A stretch of DNA of 64,000 nt, from positions 186,001 to 250,000 of the forward strand of contig NZ_CP086113.1 of assembly GCF_016806835.2 (NCBI RefSeq). Direction: 5' to 3'. The translations under genes were made by a program, and so were the position numbers. Within the stretch, counting starts at the first letter, position 1. Every line of letters begins with the position of its first letter. The notes below the pieces were generated by a model. The model made no database searches and was not told the origin of the DNA. It was given only the letters and a program-made list of their open reading frames with translations. This document shows positions 41,290-51,741 of the stretch, in pieces. The stretch is from Skermanella rosea. Lineage in GTDB: Bacteria > Pseudomonadota > Alphaproteobacteria > Azospirillales > Azospirillaceae.

Positions 41290-43185
41290 ATGCGCCGCAT
41301 CACGCTGGTTCTCGCCGGGACGCTTCTCGGCGCACCGGCCCTCGCCGAGACGATCACGATCGGCCCGGGCCAGAGCGTCACCGACGCCGCCCGGCGCCTC
41401 GCGCCCGGCGACACCCTGCTGCTGGCGCCCGGCACGTACAACGAGTCGGTCGACCTCAGCGGCCTGCACGGCAGGGAGGGCGCGCCGATCACGATCCGGG
41501 CCGCGGCCGGCCCGGGAACCGCCGTGATCAACGGAGGCAGGAACACGGCGGCGGTCCAGGCGAACCGCATCAGCCACGTGGCGGTCCGCGACCTGGTCGT
41601 CGTCGCCAACGCCGGGGGAACCGACGACGACGTGGGCGGCTTCAAGATCTGGGGGAGCTGGGACAATCCGGCCCGCCACCTGGAGTTCACCGGCAATACG
41701 ATCACCGGCCGGGGGCAGGACGGCTTCAAGCTGTTCCAGGGCGCCCACGACGTGCTGGTCGCCGGCAACACCCTGGACGGCGACTGGCGCCAGGAAGCGA
41801 TCGACAACGTCTCGGTCCGCGACACCGTCTACGCCGGCAACACGATCGTCGGCCGGGCCGGGTTCTCGGGCCTCACCCTGAAGGCGGGCAGCCGGGACAA
41901 CGTCGTCCGCGACAACCGGATCGACGTCGACGCGCCGACCCAGCTCAGCGTCGGGGGATACGGAAACTCGCGCCTGGACCGGGAGTTCCCGGCGGAGTGG
42001 CAGGGCTTCGAGGCCAGGAACACCACGGTCACCGGCAACGCGATCGACGGCAGCGTGCGCCTGGTCTCGGCGGTGGACAACAGGATCACCGGCAACGCCA
42101 TCACCGGTCCGGTGAGCAGCGGCACCAATGTCCACATGCCGAACTCCGTCAGAAGTTCGGGCAACACCGTGGACGACGGCTCGCGCCTGGAACGGGGCGT
42201 GGACGGGGTCGGGGCGAACATCGGCGACACGGGATCGAACATCTCGGGCTCGGTCGACCGCGGGGCCTACCGCTCCCAGCGACGCCTGGAGGATCTGCTG
42301 TCCGGCGACGGGATCACCCGCCAGGCCAACCGGGCGATCGACGGGGCGACCGGCGCCGTCACCGGCGCGATCGACAGGGCCATCGACGAGACGACCGACA
42401 CGGTGATGCAGCCGGTCGAGGACATGATCGACGGCATCGGCCAGACCCTGTCGTGCAACGTCGCCGGCGCCGCGGTCGCCGGCGCGGCCGGCATCGTCAG
42501 CGGGATCTTCAGCGGCGGCAGGGCGACGCTGGGCGCCCAGCTGGCGCAGCACATGACCCAGATCGCCGGGAACCTGTGCCTGGGCAAGCAGCTCGCGGCC
42601 CAGCGCCGGCAGCTCGAGGTGCAGCGCCGGATGCTCGACCTCGAACGGCGCAACATCGCGGCCGGCACGGCCGACAACGCGGCCGGCCTCGACGGCCTGA
42701 TGGCGAGGACCCTGCCCGGGCTGGACCGGGCGGGGTTCCTGCTGTCCGAACCGCGGATCGAGGATCAGTATCGGCAAACCTATCCCGACATGTTCCCGCC
42801 CCTGCCGCCGGACGGACTGGTCGAGGTCGAGGACGGGTTGCGCCGGCACGAGCGCGACGCGCATCTCCGGTCGCTCGCCCTGCAGAACCGGGCGGTCCAG
42901 GAGCAGGCCGGCACCCTCGGCCGGGCCGTGGACCATGCCGCCGCCGGTCGTGCCGGCCCGGGCCTGCGCTCCGAACTCCAGGCCATGAACGCCATCCAGG
43001 GCGAGACGATCGCGTCGATCAACGTCCTGACCGCGGCCACGGTGGGCCACCAGCGGGCCGTGACCGAGGCACGCCTGCGCGACGAGACCAGGAGAACCGC
43101 CGCCAACGCGACGGCGAAGGAGTTCATGAGCACGCTCGCCGTCTGCGGCAATTGCAACATCAGCCGCCCGTTCCTGGGCGATTAG
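41290..43185 (+). CDS. trbJ: TrbJ/VirB5-like protein fused to an N-terminal parallel beta-helix
   Basis: 631 residues, against about 250 for ordinary TrbJ. The signal peptide is MRRITLVLAGTLLGAPALA. Residues 20-320 are a right-handed beta-helix of NosD/pectate-lyase type: LAPGTYNESVDLSGLHG, then repeated N-x-I-x-G turns (FTGNTITGRGQDGFKLFQGA, YAGNTIVGRAGFSGLTLKAG, VTGNAIDGSVRLVSAVDNRI). Residues 340-420 are a Gly/Ala linker. From about 430 the TrbJ part appears: long helices (KQLAAQRRQLEVQRRMLDLE), YRQTYPDMFPPLPPDG, LQAMNAIQGETIASINVLTA. The last residues are CGNCNISRPFLGD. It occupies the trbJ place between trbE and trbK. VirB5 proteins sit at the pilus tip, so the helix may bind or process surface glycans (inference). 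Confidence 0.8.
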   Translation: MRRITLVLAGTLLGAPALAETITIGPGQSVTDAARRLAPGDTLLLAPGTYNESVDLSGLHGREGAPITIRAAAGPGTAVINGGRNTAAVQANRISHVAVRDLVVVANAGGTDDDVGGFKIWGSWDNPARHLEFTGNTITGRGQDGFKLFQGAHDVLVAGNTLDGDWRQEAIDNVSVRDTVYAGNTIVGRAGFSGLTLKAGSRDNVVRDNRIDVDAPTQLSVGGYGNSRLDREFPAEWQGFEARNTTVTGNAIDGSVRLVSAVDNRITGNAITGPVSSGTNVHMPNSVRSSGNTVDDGSRLERGVDGVGANIGDTGSNISGSVDRGAYRSQRRLEDLLSGDGITRQANRAIDGATGAVTGAIDRAIDETTDTVMQPVEDMIDGIGQTLSCNVAGAAVAGAAGIVSGIFSGGRATLGAQLAQHMTQIAGNLCLGKQLAAQRRQLEVQRRMLDLERRNIAAGTADNAAGLDGLMARTLPGLDRAGFLLSEPRIEDQYRQTYPDMFPPLPPDGLVEVEDGLRRHERDAHLRSLALQNRAVQEQAGTLGRAVDHAAAGRAGPGLRSELQAMNAIQGETIASINVLTAATVGHQRAVTEARLRDETRRTAANATAKEFMSTLAVCGNCNISRPFLGD

Positions 43186-43200
43186 ACAGGAGGCACCATC

Positions 43201-43374
43201 ATGAGACACTTGGCAACGGCTGCACTCGTTCTGGCGGGCCTGACGGTTACCGCATGCTGGGACGATGAGAAAGAGAAAAAATCCTCAGAGTTCATGTCAA
43301 ACTTAACGAAGTGCGAGAACTGCAAGATTGATAAGCCATTTCTTGGCTCAACGGAGAAGATCGATGAACCCTGA
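43201..43374 (+). CDS. trbK: TrbK-like entry-exclusion lipoprotein, 57 aa
   Basis: Lipoprotein signal MRHLATAALVLAGLTVTAC, with Cys19 as the lipid site, then a short charged domain. ATG 43201 follows AGGAGGCACC. Position between trbJ and trbL and size match TrbK, which blocks entry of the same plasmid into the cell. Its tail KCENCKIDKPFLG repeats the end of the upstream TrbJ fusion (CGNCNISRPFLG). Codon use is AT-richer than in its neighbours. The stop overlaps trbL by 11 nt. Confidence 0.75.
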   Translation: MRHLATAALVLAGLTVTACWDDEKEKKSSEFMSNLTKCENCKIDKPFLGSTEKIDEP

Positions 43375-44536
43375 TTATAGCTATGATTACGCTTACCTGA
43401 ACACTGCTATTACTGACATGCTGGGACGTATCACGTCGGTTGGTGGGGTGATTGATGCCGCATTACAGCCGGTATATTTCATTGTTGGCGTGTTGCTCCT
43501 GGTGTTGGCTTGCATCAAGTTCATGTGGCAGCGAGATTTAGCTCCATTGGCCCTTTTTGTAGTCCGATATATTCAGCTGATGGTGCTGATTCTTATCTCA
43601 GGCCAATGGATGCCACTGGCCGATGGTTATGTATCCCAGATGGGTGCCTTTGGAGCCAATGCAGCTGGATTCGATGTTCTTCAGTTGGCACCAGGAACTG
43701 TGATCATCCGCGCTTTGGAAATCGCAAATCGGATGTACACGGAGAATGTATCGTGGATGCGTGTACTATTCGGTTCATCGGAAGATACGATTGCTCATGT
43801 CCTGCTGCTGCTTGGATGCGCTGGCACGATCTTGATGAGCATTTTCATGGCTGCCTGGATCATGCTGTTTTTCGTCGTATTCAAACTGGCGTCGGTTGTT
43901 GCTCTAGTCTTTTTGGCATTTCTAATGTTTGAGGGCACGCGGTTCATGGCAGCGCCCGGTCTTGCCCGCATTTTGGCTTATGGTGTCCAAATGCTGGTGC
44001 TGAGTCTCGCCACAGGCTTGTTCTTTATGACCTTGGATGCACTCGACCTCAGCGGACACCTGCATGTAGGACAATCAGTGGCTCTGCTTGTGGTCATGTT
44101 CTTTTTCGGGCTGCTGTTCAAGTATACGACGGATATCGCCAAGGAACAGGTCACCGGCGTGCCGACCCTGTCGCTGCATGACACCGGCCAGCTTGCAGGC
44201 CGTGCCGCAGCCACTGCCGCATCGATGGTCGGCCACATCGGAACGGTCGGGCTCGGTACGCTGGGAGCCTTGAGGCTGACCGGCGCTGCCACAGCCGGGA
44301 GATACGCCAGCATTCCCACTTCGACCTCGGGCGCCGCCGCATCGTCAGGCATGAGACACGCCGTAGAAGGAGGTGCCGCCGAGGCACCGGCCACAGTTGC
44401 CCGTTTGCTGAACCGCTCGCCGATAGACGCCACATGGACCGAAGCCCGCGACCTCCCCCGGACGGCGGCACGCCTGCTGGAAGCGCGCCGCGCCCTGCCG
44501 CCGCCACCGCGCCAGCTACCCCCACCCCGTTCATGA
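43364..44536 (+). CDS. trbL: TrbL/VirB6-type polytopic channel protein
   Basis: 390 residues from ATG 43364. At least five hydrophobic segments lie in residues 35-265 (PVYFIVGVLLLVLACIKFMW, YIQLMVLILISGQWMPLADG, HVLLLLGCAGTILMSIFMAA, LFFVVFKLASVVALVFLAFL, SVALLVVMFFFGLLFKYTTD). The cytoplasmic tail is Ala/Pro/Arg-rich. The first 780 bases have about half G+C, while the tail from about 44140 returns to the high GC of the operon, so the gene is a mosaic. Confidence 0.9.
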   Translation: MNPDYSYDYAYLNTAITDMLGRITSVGGVIDAALQPVYFIVGVLLLVLACIKFMWQRDLAPLALFVVRYIQLMVLILISGQWMPLADGYVSQMGAFGANAAGFDVLQLAPGTVIIRALEIANRMYTENVSWMRVLFGSSEDTIAHVLLLLGCAGTILMSIFMAAWIMLFFVVFKLASVVALVFLAFLMFEGTRFMAAPGLARILAYGVQMLVLSLATGLFFMTLDALDLSGHLHVGQSVALLVVMFFFGLLFKYTTDIAKEQVTGVPTLSLHDTGQLAGRAAATAASMVGHIGTVGLGTLGALRLTGAATAGRYASIPTSTSGAAASSGMRHAVEGGAAEAPATVARLLNRSPIDATWTEARDLPRTAARLLEARRALPPPPRQLPPPRS

Positions 44537-44548
44537 TCGGAGTTTCCC

Positions 44549-45229
44549 ATGTTCGGATTTAGCCGAAGCAAGTGGAAGGAAGAGGACGAGTACAAGCGGG
44601 CCCGATGGGCCTACGAGGGCCAGGGTGCCGCCGCGACCAAGGCGGCGTGGTTCCTTGGCTTCGGCCTGATCGCCATGACGGGATTCGCCGCCCTGCAGAC
44701 CTGGGACAAGCACCTGTTGGCCAGCCTGGGCGACCTGAAGTTCGCGACCATCGAAACCTCCCGGACGACCGGCGACGTGGTCAGCGTGTCGATCACCGAC
44801 GGCGAGCTGGTGGTCGACGAAACCAAGCGGCGCCAGTTCCTCAAATGGTGGATCCCGCTCTGGAGGGCGGTCCCGGCCGACGCCGTGGCCTACAATCACA
44901 ACTACCTGACGTCCCAGATCTACATGAGCGAACCGGTATACCACCGTGTCGCGGAGTACATGGCGGCGAACCCGGTGGACCAGTTCATCAGGGCGGGCAA
45001 CGCCCGCATGGTGCGCGTCCAGAACGTGACGCCCACCGGCACCGGAACGCGCTACCGGGTGGACTGGATCGAGAGCGTCTACCGCCATTCCCAGCTCGTC
45101 GCGCAGATCCCGATGACGGCCGACATCGACCTGGAGCAGCACACGCCCCGCACCGAGGCGGAGGCCGAGGCCAATATCTTCGGCTTCGTGATAGAAGGCT
45201 TCTACTGGACCCCCTCTCCGGGAACCTGA
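44549..45229 (+). CDS. trbF: TrbF/VirB8-type assembly protein
   Basis: 226 residues. Short cytoplasmic N-terminus, one membrane helix (AAWFLGFGLIAMTGFAALQT), then the periplasmic NTF2-like domain with RRQFLKWWIPLWRAVPAD and YRVDWIESVYRH. It is the assembly factor of the channel. GGAG lies 8 nt before ATG. Last gene of the second unit. Confidence 0.93.
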   Translation: MFGFSRSKWKEEDEYKRARWAYEGQGAAATKAAWFLGFGLIAMTGFAALQTWDKHLLASLGDLKFATIETSRTTGDVVSVSITDGELVVDETKRRQFLKWWIPLWRAVPADAVAYNHNYLTSQIYMSEPVYHRVAEYMAANPVDQFIRAGNARMVRVQNVTPTGTGTRYRVDWIESVYRHSQLVAQIPMTADIDLEQHTPRTEAEAEANIFGFVIEGFYWTPSPGT

Positions 45230-45251
45230 GCCACCTTTTCCGAGTCCGCAT

Positions 45252-45272
45252 GACTACATTAATACGGTAGTC
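45252..45272. promoter_or_regulatory. Palindrome GACTAC-N9-GTAGTC, site 3
   Basis: Perfect half-sites with T/A flanks; it ends 23 bp before the chosen trbG start, in the 66-bp gap after trbF. Confidence 0.8.
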
Positions 45273-45295
45273 AGACCGGAACAGGGATGGTATCG

Positions 45296-46165
45296 ATGAG
45301 ACGCGCCGCCGTTCTTTTGCTGTCCTGCCTCTCGGGAGCCTGTTCGCCCTCACCGGGATACCAGCCTCCCCTGCCCACTCTCCCGTCGGCCGCCGCGTCC
45401 CTGCCGGTCCCGGCGGCCAGACCGCCGCCGCCGGAAACCTTGCCCAAGCTGCCTCCCGAAGACCCCGTCAGGGCGACTGTCACCGCGCTGAGGGAGGGAT
45501 TGGTGAAGCCGCGCCGGGAATGGTTCAAGGGAGTGACCTACGCCCCGCCCTACCATCCCAACCACAGCTACCTGGTCTACATTCCCGAAGGAGCCGTCTC
45601 GACGTTCGAATTCACCCCCGGAGAGAAGCCGCGTCCGGCCTACTGCGGCGACGGCGGCGTGATCCTGTCGCAGTCATGGTCGCACCTGGGCACCGGGCCG
45701 TCGAAGGCGTGGGTCTGGCACGTCAAGGCCAAGATGACCGCACCGCGCCAGACCTGCACGGTCACGACCAGCCGCGGCATCTACCGCGTGGTCATCCAGC
45801 CGACGGCCAGCACGCACATCCCCGCCGTCCACTGGTCCGATCCCTACGGGTTCCTGTCGCCCGCCGATCCCGCGGCGCCGGAGATGATCTGCCAGAAGGC
45901 CGACATCAACTACGCCTTCGCCGGGGATCCCGGCGCCTTCGGCCTGCGCCCCGGCGACGTCTCCAACGACGGGATGCACACCTGCATCCAATTTCCCCAG
46001 TCCGCCGGTTTCGCCACGCCGGCGGTCTGGCTGATCGAGGGTGACCAGGCACGTCCGGCCAGCCCGACCATGATCGACGGCGCATACCTGGTCGACGGCG
46101 TCCCCGCCGTCCTCGAGTTGCGCACCGACACCGCGACACTGCGCATCGAAAGGTCCATCCCATGA
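45296..46165 (+). CDS. trbG: TrbG/VirB9-type outer-membrane-associated lipoprotein
   Basis: 289 residues from ATG 45296 (45287 is also possible). Lipobox LSGAC near residue 17, then a Pro-rich linker. The VirB9 beta domain reads VSTFEFTPGEKPRPAYCGDG, TTSRGIYRVVIQPTA and DINYAFAGDPGAFGLRP. It forms the outer core with TrbI. The stop overlaps trbI (ATGA). Confidence 0.92.
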   Translation: MRRAAVLLLSCLSGACSPSPGYQPPLPTLPSAAASLPVPAARPPPPETLPKLPPEDPVRATVTALREGLVKPRREWFKGVTYAPPYHPNHSYLVYIPEGAVSTFEFTPGEKPRPAYCGDGGVILSQSWSHLGTGPSKAWVWHVKAKMTAPRQTCTVTTSRGIYRVVIQPTASTHIPAVHWSDPYGFLSPADPAAPEMICQKADINYAFAGDPGAFGLRPGDVSNDGMHTCIQFPQSAGFATPAVWLIEGDQARPASPTMIDGAYLVDGVPAVLELRTDTATLRIERSIP

Positions 46166-47229
46166 CTTATGCCGAGCCACCGCGGCCGGTGGACGATCCC
46201 CGCCCGCCGGTCGAAACCCTGCGCAAATGGCCGTTCGTCGTGATGGGGCTCGCCGCCGTCGCGGTCCTCGGCGCCGTCACCATCGGCCCCTCGCTGCTGC
46301 GCGGGGAGCCGGAAAGCAGACGGATTGAGCCGGAGCCCCGGACGAGCACCCCGCGCCCCCTGCAGGGCCTGCCGCTGGACTACACCCAGGTGGTCCAGCA
46401 GCCGCCGCCTCCGGTACCGGAACCGGCGCCGCCGCCGGCCCCCGAACCGGCCGCACAGGCCCCGGCCGCCCCGGCCATCGGAATGGAAGGAATGCGACCG
46501 CAAGGCCCGACCCGGGCCGAATTGCTCAAGGCGGCCCGCATGGCCGATCTCGCGGCGGTGCCGGTCGCCGCCGCCGGCGCGGTCGAGGATACGGAACCGG
46601 GCGGCGGTCCCGCCGCGTCCGGCAGCAGGCTTTACAGCCGCCATTCGCTGACCGATCCGTTCCCCTGCCAGGTCAATGCCGGCGTCAGCATTCCCGCCAT
46701 GACGGAGCAGCGCATCACCAGCGAGTCGCCGGGCACCGTCTCCGCCATCGTCACCCGGGATATCTGGAGCGCCGACAAGACCTGCCTGGCCATGCCCCGC
46801 GGGACGCGCTTCGTCGGCCGGTACCAGACCGCGGTTGCCGAAGGCCAGGCCCGCCTCGGCATCGTGTGGACCGGCCTGACCCGCCCGCCCCCGCGCAACG
46901 ACACGATCGACCTCGACGACACCGTGGCCGGCGATCCGGACGGCACGGCCGGGCTGAGCGGCGAGGTCAACGCCCACTTCTGGCGCAAGCTGGGCTACGT
47001 CGCCGCCGCCTCGATCCTCGACATCACGAAGACCGCCATCACGGCCAGCGGCGAAGGAGGCATGGGGGCAGCCATTGCCGGTATTTTCGCTAATCGCGCG
47101 ACAAACCCTATGGACGAGTGGGCGCGGAGACAGTTAGACATCCCGCCGGTTATAGAGGTGGAGCCCCGCGAGATCACCATCGTCCTCGCCCGGCATGTCC
47201 CTCTGGACGAGTTCAGAACCAGGAGATGA
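46162..47229 (+). CDS. trbI: TrbI/VirB10-type scaffold protein
   Basis: 355 residues. Cytoplasmic N-terminus, one membrane helix (FVVMGLAAVAVLGAVTIGPS), a Pro-rich periplasmic stretch, then the VirB10 beta-barrel: YSRHSLTDPFPCQVNAGVSI, MPRGTRFVGRYQTAVAEGQA, RLGIVWTGLTRP, and the end EITIVLARHVPLDEF. It spans both membranes and senses ATPase energy. Last canonical transfer gene; trbH is not present. Confidence 0.95.
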   Translation: MTYAEPPRPVDDPRPPVETLRKWPFVVMGLAAVAVLGAVTIGPSLLRGEPESRRIEPEPRTSTPRPLQGLPLDYTQVVQQPPPPVPEPAPPPAPEPAAQAPAAPAIGMEGMRPQGPTRAELLKAARMADLAAVPVAAAGAVEDTEPGGGPAASGSRLYSRHSLTDPFPCQVNAGVSIPAMTEQRITSESPGTVSAIVTRDIWSADKTCLAMPRGTRFVGRYQTAVAEGQARLGIVWTGLTRPPPRNDTIDLDDTVAGDPDGTAGLSGEVNAHFWRKLGYVAAASILDITKTAITASGEGGMGAAIAGIFANRATNPMDEWARRQLDIPPVIEVEPREITIVLARHVPLDEFRTRR

Positions 47230-47235
47230 AGCTTC

Positions 47236-47577
47236 ATGCCCCAGCGCGATGATAAGATCGGCGTACACTTCGGAAAGATCTCATCGGCAGTCTGGGACAG
47301 GATAAAGGATCAGCCCGGGGCCATCGTTGAGAACGCGGTGCCCCTGCTGGTCCGGACATACCGAGCCGGCACCCCCATCAACTACCAGCCGGCGATGAAG
47401 GCCGGGTTGTCGAAGAAGCTCTGGCTGACCCCGGAGACGGTGCAGATGCTGAACACGCTCAGCGAGGAAACCGGGCATCGCCGGACAACCCTGATCCTGA
47501 CCGCCCTCGACCTGTATCTTGACGGCATCTACGAAAGCGCTGGGCCAAGGCAGATATCACAAGAACGCCGATGGTGA
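47236..47577 (+). CDS. Ribbon-helix-helix-like regulator candidate, 113 aa
   Basis: It starts 6 bp after trbI. The second half (KLWLTPETVQMLNTLSEETG, HRRTTLILTALDLYLDGI) is a clear ribbon-helix-helix. The first half (VHFGKISSAVWDRIKDQPGA, IVENAVPLLVRTYRAG) could be a degenerate second copy. As the terminal gene of the third unit it is a second candidate for the protein that reads the three palindromes. Confidence 0.65.
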   Translation: MPQRDDKIGVHFGKISSAVWDRIKDQPGAIVENAVPLLVRTYRAGTPINYQPAMKAGLSKKLWLTPETVQMLNTLSEETGHRRTTLILTALDLYLDGIYESAGPRQISQERRW

Positions 47578-47692
47578 TCCAGCCGCCCCAGGCGAAGAAA
47601 GCCGCCTCAAAGGGCGCCAGGGCCCGGTCGATGGCTCCGAACACAATTTCGATGAGCAGCAACAGAGCCAAAGTGGACACATCGCGCTCCAT
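47459..47692 (-). CDS. Possible small membrane protein, 77 aa
   Basis: MERDVSTLALLLLIEIVFGA, then FFAWGGWITIGVLVISALAQ: two hydrophobic stretches. GAGG lies 6 nt before ATG 47692. It overlaps the 3' end of the plus-strand regulator by 119 bp, so at least one gene boundary may be wrong. Confidence 0.4.
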   Translation of the reverse strand: MERDVSTLALLLLIEIVFGAIDRALAPFEAAFFAWGGWITIGVLVISALAQRFRRCRQDTGRGRSGSGLSGDARFPR

Positions 47693-49498: not shown

Positions 49499-50242
49499 TT
49501 ACCGGCACTCTATCCTGCCGTCGAGATAGGACACCCGTGTTCCCGGAGCGCAGTTCAGCAGCCCGGCCGCCGGTGGCGCCGCGGGTCGATTCTGTCCGGA
49601 TCGGACTGGAACCTCAACGGGCTGACCGGTGATCGCGGCTCGTGCCTGCAATCCCGATAGAACGTCGGCGAAGCTGACAGGCTCGGATCCCGCCTCCTCG
49701 GCCGAAGGTTCAGCCGCGGCTGCCCCGGTCGCCCGAGCAAGCGACTCCTGGGTTCCGACGCAGATGTTCTTGCCGTTCCACCGTGTTGGGGCCGTTCCCG
49801 GCGGGCAGTCATCGGCACCGGCTCCGGCCCGCCGGTCCAGGTTGGAAGCCTCCCCGCCATCGGCAGGTCCCGGTCGCATCCCGATCGCCGGTTCCACGGG
49901 CATTGGCGGTGGCGCCGGTGCCGCCGTCCGCGGTTTCGCCGGCTTGGTCGCCGCCAAGTCCTGGGAATCGGTACTCCTCGCCCGGAATGTCGCTATGTCG
50001 GCTGCGGACACGTCGGAAGGATAGCACAAGGGGGACCCGCCGCCCGGGCGGCTGTAGGCGCTCGATCCACCACACCGGTGACCGTTTCTCTTCGAGTTGT
50101 AGGGGCACGGACAATTGCCGCTGTAGCCCGCAATCGACTGCTCGATCAGCAAACGCCTGATCGCATCGTCGGAGAGGCCTTGTGCGGATGCCTGCGGAAC
50201 GGAGACAAGGAAAAGCCCGAGGAGTGCTACTATAAACTTCAT
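49499..50242 (-). CDS. Secreted conserved Cys-rich protein, 247 aa
   Basis: Signal peptide MKFIVALLGLFLVSVPQASA. A short conserved domain follows: SDDAIRRLLIEQSIAGYSGN, then CPCPYNSKRNGHRCGG, SAYSRPGGGSPLCYPSDVSA, with four Cys. A Pro/Ala linker comes next, then DDCPPGTAPTRWNGKNICV and a final LLNCAPGTRVSYLDGRIECR, two similar Cys pairs. I know the CPCPYN module as a recurrent secreted element of unknown role. Start at ATG 50242; longer in-frame starts lack a signal peptide at the N-terminus. It is followed by the EEP nuclease gene. Confidence 0.7.
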   Translation of the reverse strand: MKFIVALLGLFLVSVPQASAQGLSDDAIRRLLIEQSIAGYSGNCPCPYNSKRNGHRCGGSSAYSRPGGGSPLCYPSDVSAADIATFRARSTDSQDLAATKPAKPRTAAPAPPPMPVEPAIGMRPGPADGGEASNLDRRAGAGADDCPPGTAPTRWNGKNICVGTQESLARATGAAAAEPSAEEAGSEPVSFADVLSGLQARAAITGQPVEVPVRSGQNRPAAPPAAGLLNCAPGTRVSYLDGRIECR

Positions 50243-50464
50243 GAACGGGAGTTCCGCCACAATCAGGGTGCTGCGGCAAGTGCGATCAAGGATATGGTCC
50301 GAGGCGATAAGCAAGTCCTGTGGCTTAATAAGGGCCTCGGTATCGAATAACAGGAAACGCCGTGAGGTGGAAGATGCATACCGGTCCACCGGGCAATGAA
50401 TGATGAAGTGCCGGCCGGACAGCGATCACGCACAGATACTTGGTGCTGTCACGAAGGGGTGCGG

Positions 50465-51741
50465 TCAGGGCTGTTCAGTTCTCGCTATGAGAGGCGATAT
50501 GCGAGCGCATTGTCGAAGTTGAGCGCGTTGACGTAGAGTTCGCGGGCGATGTTCTGGACGCCGTTGGCCCGCAGGATGTTGATCGCGAAGCTGCGGAACC
50601 GGGCGACGTGGGTGGGCTTGACGCGGGTTCGGCTGGCGTCCTCGCCGAACGTGACGTCGCGGACCCAATGGCTCCGGTTTTCAATCGCCCAGTGCCCCCG
50701 GACCGCCCGTCCGAACGCCTCGGCGCCGAGCGCGACCTGGCAGGCGTAGAACGAGACGTCCTCGGTGGCGTGCCACAGGCCTGACCTGGTGTCCTTGTGC
50801 CAGGTCAGGCGGGCGACGCGGGCGGCGCAGACGATTAGGCCGTCCCATTCGGCGTCGAGTTTGCCCCGGACATCGAAGGTCTCGACCGTGCGGGTCTCGT
50901 GGCGGCCGTGGCCCTTGGGATCAACGCTCCTGTGGCTTTCGGCCGGGGGCTGGGTGGCGGCGATGGCCTCGAGCGTGGCCAGCAGGGTCGGCTGGTTGGC
51001 CTTGACCTGGGCGAGCAACGCGTTGCCGGTGTCGCGGGCCGCCTCAAAGGTTTTTTTGACAGTGCAGCGCGTCGGCGGTGAACAGCACGCCGCTCAGGCC
51101 GAGCTCCGCGATCAGGCGCTGGGCCGCCGGGATCTCGTTGCTCTTGTCGTCGATCTCGCTGTGCGCCAGCAGGATCGCCGCCTCCGAGGCGAACGCGCTG
51201 AGCGCCTGGGCCGCCTTGCGGTCGTTGAGGTGGTCGAAGCTGCCCTTGAGCGTCTTGCCGTCGAGCGCGATCGCCGGCATCCCGCCCTCGGGGCGCGCCA
51301 GCAGGCTGGCGGCGTGCCGGCGGAACGCCCGCTCCAGGGCGTCGGCGTCGAGGTCCTGGAGCACGGTGCGCAGGGTGTTGACCGATGGCGCCCGCCTCAG
51401 GGCGACGCCGAACAGCTCGTTGAGCAACTCCCGGCGCTGCTCCAGGAAGACGATGATGCGGCGGTACGAGGTCGCGCCGGACAGCAGCGCCAGCACGGTG
51501 AACAGCAGCAGCGGCGCCAGCGGGTAGCGCTTGCCCGCCGCGCGCCGCGGATCGGGAACCTCGCCCAGGGCCGCGAGAAGCCGGCCGAACGGTACCATGG
51601 CAACCCCCAAGTCCAGGAATTGCCGAGCAAGGATTCACACATTCGCGCGAGATGGTAGACTCTTTCTACGCTGCTTCACACCCCGCCAGGACTCGCTGCG
51701 CGCGAGTCAGGCGCGCAACGGGGAGAACTGAACAGCCCTGA
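50465..51741 (-). mobile_element. ISAs1-family element, 1,277 bp, 19-bp inverted ends
   Basis: TCAGGGCTGTTCAGTTCTC at 50465-50483 is exactly complementary to 51723-51741. No target duplication is visible in the flanks (GGTGCGG against GGATCATC). The right flank lies inside a DUF3883 reading frame. Confidence 0.9.
50485..51598 (-). pseudogene. ISAs1-family transposase with one frameshift
   Basis: The N-terminal part (VPFGRLLAALGEVPDPRRAA, PLLLFTVLALLSGATSYRRI, AIALDGKTLKGSFDHLNDRK) ends ADALHCQKNL. The C-terminal part resumes as MLAQVKANQPTLLATLEAIA, HWAIENRSHWVRDVTFGEDA, RSFAINILRANG. The break is at a run of seven A (about 51053-51059); one extra A would restore QKKTFEAARDTGNALLAQV. A single-base loss in a homopolymer is the simplest cause. 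A -1 slip does not restore the frame. Confidence 0.85.

Follow-up and report, generated by a model that had tools for sequence, protein, structure and literature searches.

TrbK, a putative entry-exclusion lipoprotein, carries a C-terminal tail that copies the one at the C-terminus of its neighbour TrbJ (VirB5, the pilus-tip protein) in the same conjugation system, and the match is well supported by the sequences compared here. The tails of TrbJ and TrbK were shown by alignment to co-vary across divergent MPF_T systems. In the 64-kb stretch of Skermanella DNA that was analysed (the window), recombination was found to have replaced the mature part of TrbK and the membrane domain of TrbL together, as judged against a relative with 97% identity outside this tract. 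The genes trbK and trbL form a pair presumed to keep a cell from taking in the same plasmid a second time. The initial annotation of this DNA had proposed such a swap from the low GC content of trbK and the 5' part of trbL; the stronger clue, which it missed, is the copying of the TrbJ tail by TrbK. The tail rule is of greater value than the swap, and the tail match suggests a testable way for exclusion to work.

Composition of the trb operon

The trb operon of the window lies on the + strand in the order traG, trbB, trbC, trbD, trbE, trbJ, trbK, trbL, trbF, trbG and trbI. The same operon was found on C6 of the window genome, with more distantly related operons on C2 and C7, the window copy being that of C3. 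Protein identity between the C6 and window operons was 54–82%, with 71% for trbL. The features of the region are as follows.

41290..43185, + strand: trbJ (VirB5-like), encoding a right-handed beta-helix domain at the N-terminus, assigned from Beta_helix, PRK13874 and position in the trb operon
43114..43179, + strand: TrbJ C-terminal tail, AKEFMSTLAVCGNCNISRPFLG(D), from the translation and a TrbK profile match in the whole-genome search (E 6e-7)
43186..44536, no strand: full extent of lowered GC3 (whole trbK and trbL)
43201..43374, + strand: trbK-like gene for a predicted entry-exclusion lipoprotein of 57 aa with lipobox Cys19, from the translation and the position between trbJ and trbL
43265..44105, no strand: exchanged tract (mature TrbK and TrbL residues 1–247), from two-breakpoint maximum likelihood against S. 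mucosa pSM-1 and from dS
43282..43347, + strand: tail twin inside TrbK, SSEFMSNLTKCENCKIDKPFLG, with 13 of 22 residues identical to the TrbJ tail
43364..44536, + strand: trbL (VirB6-like), from Pfam TrbL PF04610

TrbJ matched the Pfam family Beta_helix at residues 117–212 (E 5.6e-5, with a score under the family cut-off) and gave a weak match to the NCBIfam TrbJ family PRK13874 at residues 433–615 (E 0.054, 12.5 bits against a cut-off of 225), while the TrbJ homologue of the C2 operon matched TIGR02780 with an E of 1.6e-6. The N-terminal right-handed beta-helix (41290–42240 in the window) was also present in the C6 and C2 operons, and could possibly form an adhesin or glycan-binding tip. TrbL matched Pfam TrbL PF04610 at residues 43–252 (E 6.8e-11, 42.8 bits against a cut-off of 25.9), and a sequence search of TrbL against solved structures returned no match. 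AlphaFold2 models of TrbJ and TrbL calculated without an alignment had mean pLDDT values of 46 and 53 respectively and were unusable.

The gene between the virB5-like trbJ and the virB6-like trbL encodes a small lipoprotein with a signal peptide and a lipobox cysteine. The lipobox (...VTAC19) is kept in the Skermanella mucosa copy and reads SGC in the C6 copy. No Pfam family matched this protein at E 0.001, and the best NCBIfam match, Eex_IncN, reached 13.7 bits against a cut-off of 33. Because no curated TrbK or Eex profile matched above its cut-off, the protein is designated TrbK-like by anatomy and not by family. The gene order trbJ-trbK-trbL, the small lipoprotein and the P-type T4SS are all shared with the IncP plasmids RP4 and R751. 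The window differs from IncP in that its TrbK lies under all family cut-offs and its TrbJ carries a beta-helix, and in R751 trbF, trbG and trbI precede trbJ, whereas in the window they come after trbL.

Tail likeness of TrbJ and TrbK

TrbK has, close to its end, a counterpart of the 22 residues that precede the final Asp of TrbJ, as listed above. GC3 was 0.95 in the trbJ copy of the tail compared with 0.64 in the trbK copy and the same codon was used at only 6 of the 13 identical residues, so the likeness does not stem from a recent DNA duplication. In the whole-genome search the TrbK profile matched TrbJ tails with E values of 2e-9 to 8e-7, and the TrbJ profile matched TrbK with E values of 3e-4 to 1e-3. 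The tails of the window group are EFMSTLAVCGNCNISRPFLG in TrbJ and EFMSNLTKCENCKIDKPFLG in TrbK, and share a short C-terminal peptide with a CxNC motif. The C2 operon of the same genome has a tail pair of other sequence (AMQGLGENDAVNVRIPF in TrbJ and AMRDLGKNEHVPVRSPW in TrbK), and the C7 operon has the pair VVVDPWG/RIVDPWG. This one genome (G000) holds four loci of trb/virB type (C2, C3, C6 and C7) with three TrbJ/TrbK tail codes, those of C3 and C6 being alike; by the tail rule the three codes would be different exclusion groups.

The tail match was measured across other MPF_T systems. The loci came from 299 and 398 genomes and were chosen for a match to a TrbJ family, with weaker matches added. 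Across 10 clusters the own-pair tail score was 37.2 compared with 20.6 for permuted pairs; this test kept the loci L061, L092, L099 and L101, at which the mechanically chosen TrbK ORF was wrong. Prospective loci were then added and the ORF choices corrected or dropped, giving 13 groups of TrbJ families with a mean own score of 39.3 against 17.3 permuted, the maximum of 5000 permutations being 28.2. The own TrbK tail outscored every TrbK tail of other groups in 10 of the 13 groups, for all members tested. For ten R751-like loci with differing tails, none of 20000 permutations reached the own-pair sum. The TrbK match ended 30 residues or fewer from the TrbJ C-terminus in 28 of 51 loci, where about 5 were expected. 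R751 gave the same match as the window, and the match was also found in L034, L040, L062 and others.

A prospective check of EexN-family loci gave a tail match in four of the five with an adjacent VirB5-like gene, and an Eex located 10.6 kb from VirB5 matched the TrbJ tail of its own contig. Plasmids with an annotated trbK, also checked prospectively, gave matches such as that of IncC pIP40a (QMRTWTFRPSPADNY in TrbJ and QMRQWEFKPSPKDDY in TrbK); within this set pVb1636 and the truncated first TrbK (K1) of pLBC62 did not outscore unrelated tails. A gonococcal TrbK, for which 'very little homology' to known TrbKs has been published (PMC2848598), gave a score of 41 with its own TrbJ (DILKHPYRR in TrbJ, DVLKRPYKR in TrbK) compared with 26 for the best other TrbK. 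The match was weak in the large TrbJ_Ti group, where 3 of 28 loci beat all other groups and the likeness was mostly an RRFL-type motif, and L123 failed the own-tail test. R46 and R388 were borderline by score and alignable by eye at the extreme C-terminus, the EexN tails ending like those of their own VirB5 (GMPTIQ/GMPKIR in R388, SPSIN/SPKI in R46). The EexN systems of IncN and IncW plasmids resemble the window in the order virB5-eex-virB6 and in the lipoprotein, but outside the lipobox EexN is unrelated to the window TrbK or under the cut-off given above.

No earlier report of the TrbJ/TrbK tail likeness was found in the literature searched, which left out Haase 1996 on RP4 TrbK. At L137 the TrbJ tail (RRRFLGDGTPYTP / RKRFYGDGETPYTP) is matched far more closely by a second Eex-like lipoprotein, encoded 7 kb upstream of trbJ (G476:C2:228183-228398), than by the adjacent TrbK. 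On pLBC62 (L157 2203-2588) the TrbK genes are in tandem, the first stopping just before the tail and the second having a full TrbJ-like tail.

Exchange of the trbK-trbL tract

The GC content of 43190–44139 was 0.496, about the lowest of any 950-nt stretch in the window, the minimum of all 950-nt windows being 0.494 at 43180. The low-GC module that the initial annotation had placed from just before trbK was therefore confirmed, and its onset is sharp, directly behind the trbJ stop (43185). GC3 was 0.95–0.97 from traG to trbJ, with 0.91 in trbC, and 0.61 in trbK. It fell from 0.94 to 0.55 in the membrane part of trbL (135/247 in 43364–44105, against 0.936 in the remaining operon, binomial log10 p approximately -65). 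The trbL tail had a GC3 of 0.73 and recovery was full at trbF (0.90), with 0.86 in trbG/trbI, so that the unit with depressed GC3 is the whole of trbK and trbL (43186–44536). The end of the drop inside trbL, which had been placed at about 44140, was exaggerated in terms of composition: part of it reflects amino-acid content, since GC1 and GC2 are raised by the Ala-rich tail, while tail GC3 is still lowered. A sharp breakpoint within trbL was nevertheless given by a second, independent measure, the divergence from S. mucosa, at 44105. A second and shallower GC dip (approximately 0.56) was seen at 50100–50550 of the window.

The low GC is not intrinsic to trbK and trbL, since the paralogous C6 operon of the same genome has GC3 values of 0.81 and 0.91 for these genes; values in the C2 operon were about 0.80 and 0.84. 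The C6 copy is the closest high-GC relative, and low GC at this position is not common to all relatives. A composition imposed by membrane-protein coding, or a divergence that arose by fast evolution in place without recombination, is accordingly given a very small probability. Hydrophobic segments do depress GC2 (0.36 in the trbL membrane part), but GC3 in the same segment was 0.55 in the window against 0.93 in C6, which ruled out the membrane-protein effect. Fast evolution in place was ruled out by the synonymous sites, at which divergence was saturated inside the tract described below and 0.04–0.12 outside it.

The nearest relative, Skermanella mucosa pSM-1 (L014), was approximately 97% identical to the window over 41747–47595 save for one tract. 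The bounds of this tract, taken as the maximum-likelihood two-breakpoint segment against pSM-1, were 43265–44105, where identity was 74%; differences amounted to 25.7% inside and 2.7% outside, with an LLR of 226 compared with a largest permuted value of 6.8. The first breakpoint falls at TrbK residue 22, shortly after the lipidated Cys19, and the second at TrbL residue 247, where the Pfam TrbL domain ends. dS between the window and S. mucosa was approximately 3 in the trbL membrane part and 0.04–0.12 in trbJ, the trbL tail, trbF, trbG and trbI. Given this contrast in identity and in dS, the tract was replaced by recombination, and the swap of exactly trbK and 5' trbL that had been proposed is supported to within these breakpoints. 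Identity over TrbL residues 1–247 was 0.83 between window and S. mucosa, 0.80 between window and C6 and 0.76 between S. mucosa and C6, making the three alleles nearly equidistant, whereas in the flanks window and S. mucosa are close sisters (0.93–0.99, against 0.55–0.72 in the C6 comparisons). Tract and flank distances disagree, and the tract does not follow the other operon genes. The exchange did not include TrbJ, whose last 314 aa are 93% identical to those of S. mucosa. 

Two alleles of the exclusion pair are present in one backbone, and both are low in GC. We infer two successive events, first the import of a low-GC trbK-trbL and later an exchange within a pool of low-GC alleles. Searches with trbL among genome contigs, viral contigs and plasmids revealed no donor of the tract, returning only S. 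mucosa or nothing, and genome searches at genus, class and order level gave close relatives only in Skermanella. A patch inside the tract (43846–43920) has 95% identity to S. mucosa and is possibly a mosaic or a constrained core.

The 3' half alone of the S. mucosa operon remains, and no TrbE relative was found in that genome. On pSM-1 (L014 8009-11441) IS5-type transposase genes adjoin the 5'-truncated trbJ, the front half of the operon being gone. The S. mucosa operon is a 5'-truncated remnant of doubtful present function, and the exchange may predate the truncation. This truncation fits a neutral exchange, in which chance gene conversion between related operons left exclusion unaffected, as does the low dN/dS of the tract (0.12/3), which indicates purifying and not diversifying selection. 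Such an exchange is somewhat unlikely, in that one breakpoint coincides with the beginning of mature TrbK and the other with the point where the TrbL membrane domain ends, and no other such tract was seen within 41747–47595.

A proposed decoy model of entry exclusion

A paper from 2022 stated that 'the eex mechanism remains unknown' (PMC9825185). VirB5 is mounted on VirB6 and ends up at the pilus tip (PMC9259494, PMC12624023), TrbK exclusion is lost on C-terminal truncation (PMC8923210, citing the same for IncP TrbK), and recipients with trbJ or trbK are protected from the RP4 T4SS (PMC11045733). In the proposed mechanism TrbK would be placed in the recipient inner membrane, facing the periplasm, where its tail would mimic that of TrbJ and fill the site on the incoming machine at which the VirB5 tail must dock. 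This site would most likely be on TrbL/VirB6, which carries VirB5, and its occupation would halt transfer solely for machines that have the same lock. If mature TrbK and the TrbL membrane domain are exchanged jointly, key and lock would still fit each other although exclusion specificity shifts. We consider it slightly more probable than not, as one joint proposition, that in this segment a P-type (MPF_T) conjugation operon acquired an imported allele of its exclusion pair, with a shift of exclusion group, and that the lipoprotein acts as a decoy of the VirB5 tail at the docking site. Whether this extends to a rule for MPF_T systems is evenly balanced: the entry-exclusion lipoproteins (TrbK, EexN and relatives) would each be a membrane-anchored decoy of their own VirB5 C-terminal tail, the tail would be the exclusion specificity code, and exchange of lipoprotein and VirB6 membrane domain would create new exclusion groups.

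TrbL is favoured over TrbJ as the receptor, because its membrane domain was exchanged together with TrbK, although this is not decisive. Counting against the decoy model, the tract exchange left TrbJ in place, even though the TrbK tail is modelled on that of TrbJ. The TrbK tail might instead bind the incoming TrbJ pentamer and jam the pilus tip by displacing a TrbJ tail from an inter-subunit groove, with TrbL exchanged merely as the neighbour of trbK. The copied tail is that of TrbJ, VirB5 is found at the pilus tip as a tight pentamer (PMC12624023) and TrbJ made in the recipient is itself protective (PMC11045733), all of which suit a TrbJ target; this is judged unlikely, given that it was the TrbL membrane domain and not TrbJ that was exchanged with TrbK. 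It is less likely still that the tail shared by the two proteins serves them as a signal for docking or sorting, by which both dock, for example, on TrbL or a periplasmic folding factor, with exclusion residing in another part of TrbK. A short C-terminal peptide that is shared and holds a CxNC motif, as in the window group, could act as a general signal for interaction or folding, but the tails co-vary within closely related systems, which is unexpected for a general host factor, and the loss of exclusion on C-terminal truncation also opposes it.

The pairing of TrbK with TrbL has a parallel in SXT/R391, where allelic exclusion groups are formed by Eex and the VirB6-like TraG, whose trees are congruent in contrast to those of most other core genes (PMC2791158). 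The two systems differ in that TraG is of F type and not P-type, and the exclusion determinants of Eex and TraG are described as cytoplasmic in the title of a reference listed in PMC7690428. No description of a VirB5-tail copy for the SXT/R391 Eex was found in the literature searched.

If the code holds, exclusion specificity would be readable from the C-terminal peptide shared with VirB5. The code would predict which plasmids exclude one another, find exclusion proteins too diverged for profiles, as in the gonococcal case, and point to the binding site. The exchanged tract is a natural example of a TrbK/TrbL pair moving as a unit.

On IncC pIP40a (L161, 220-2395) trbJ-trbK-trbL lie on an F-type (MPF_F) plasmid whose examined stretch has no further trb gene, and on X. 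perforans pLH3.4 (L159, 232-1299) trbJ-trbK adjoin traI on a mobilizable plasmid. The trbJ-trbK-trbL trio may travel as a module.
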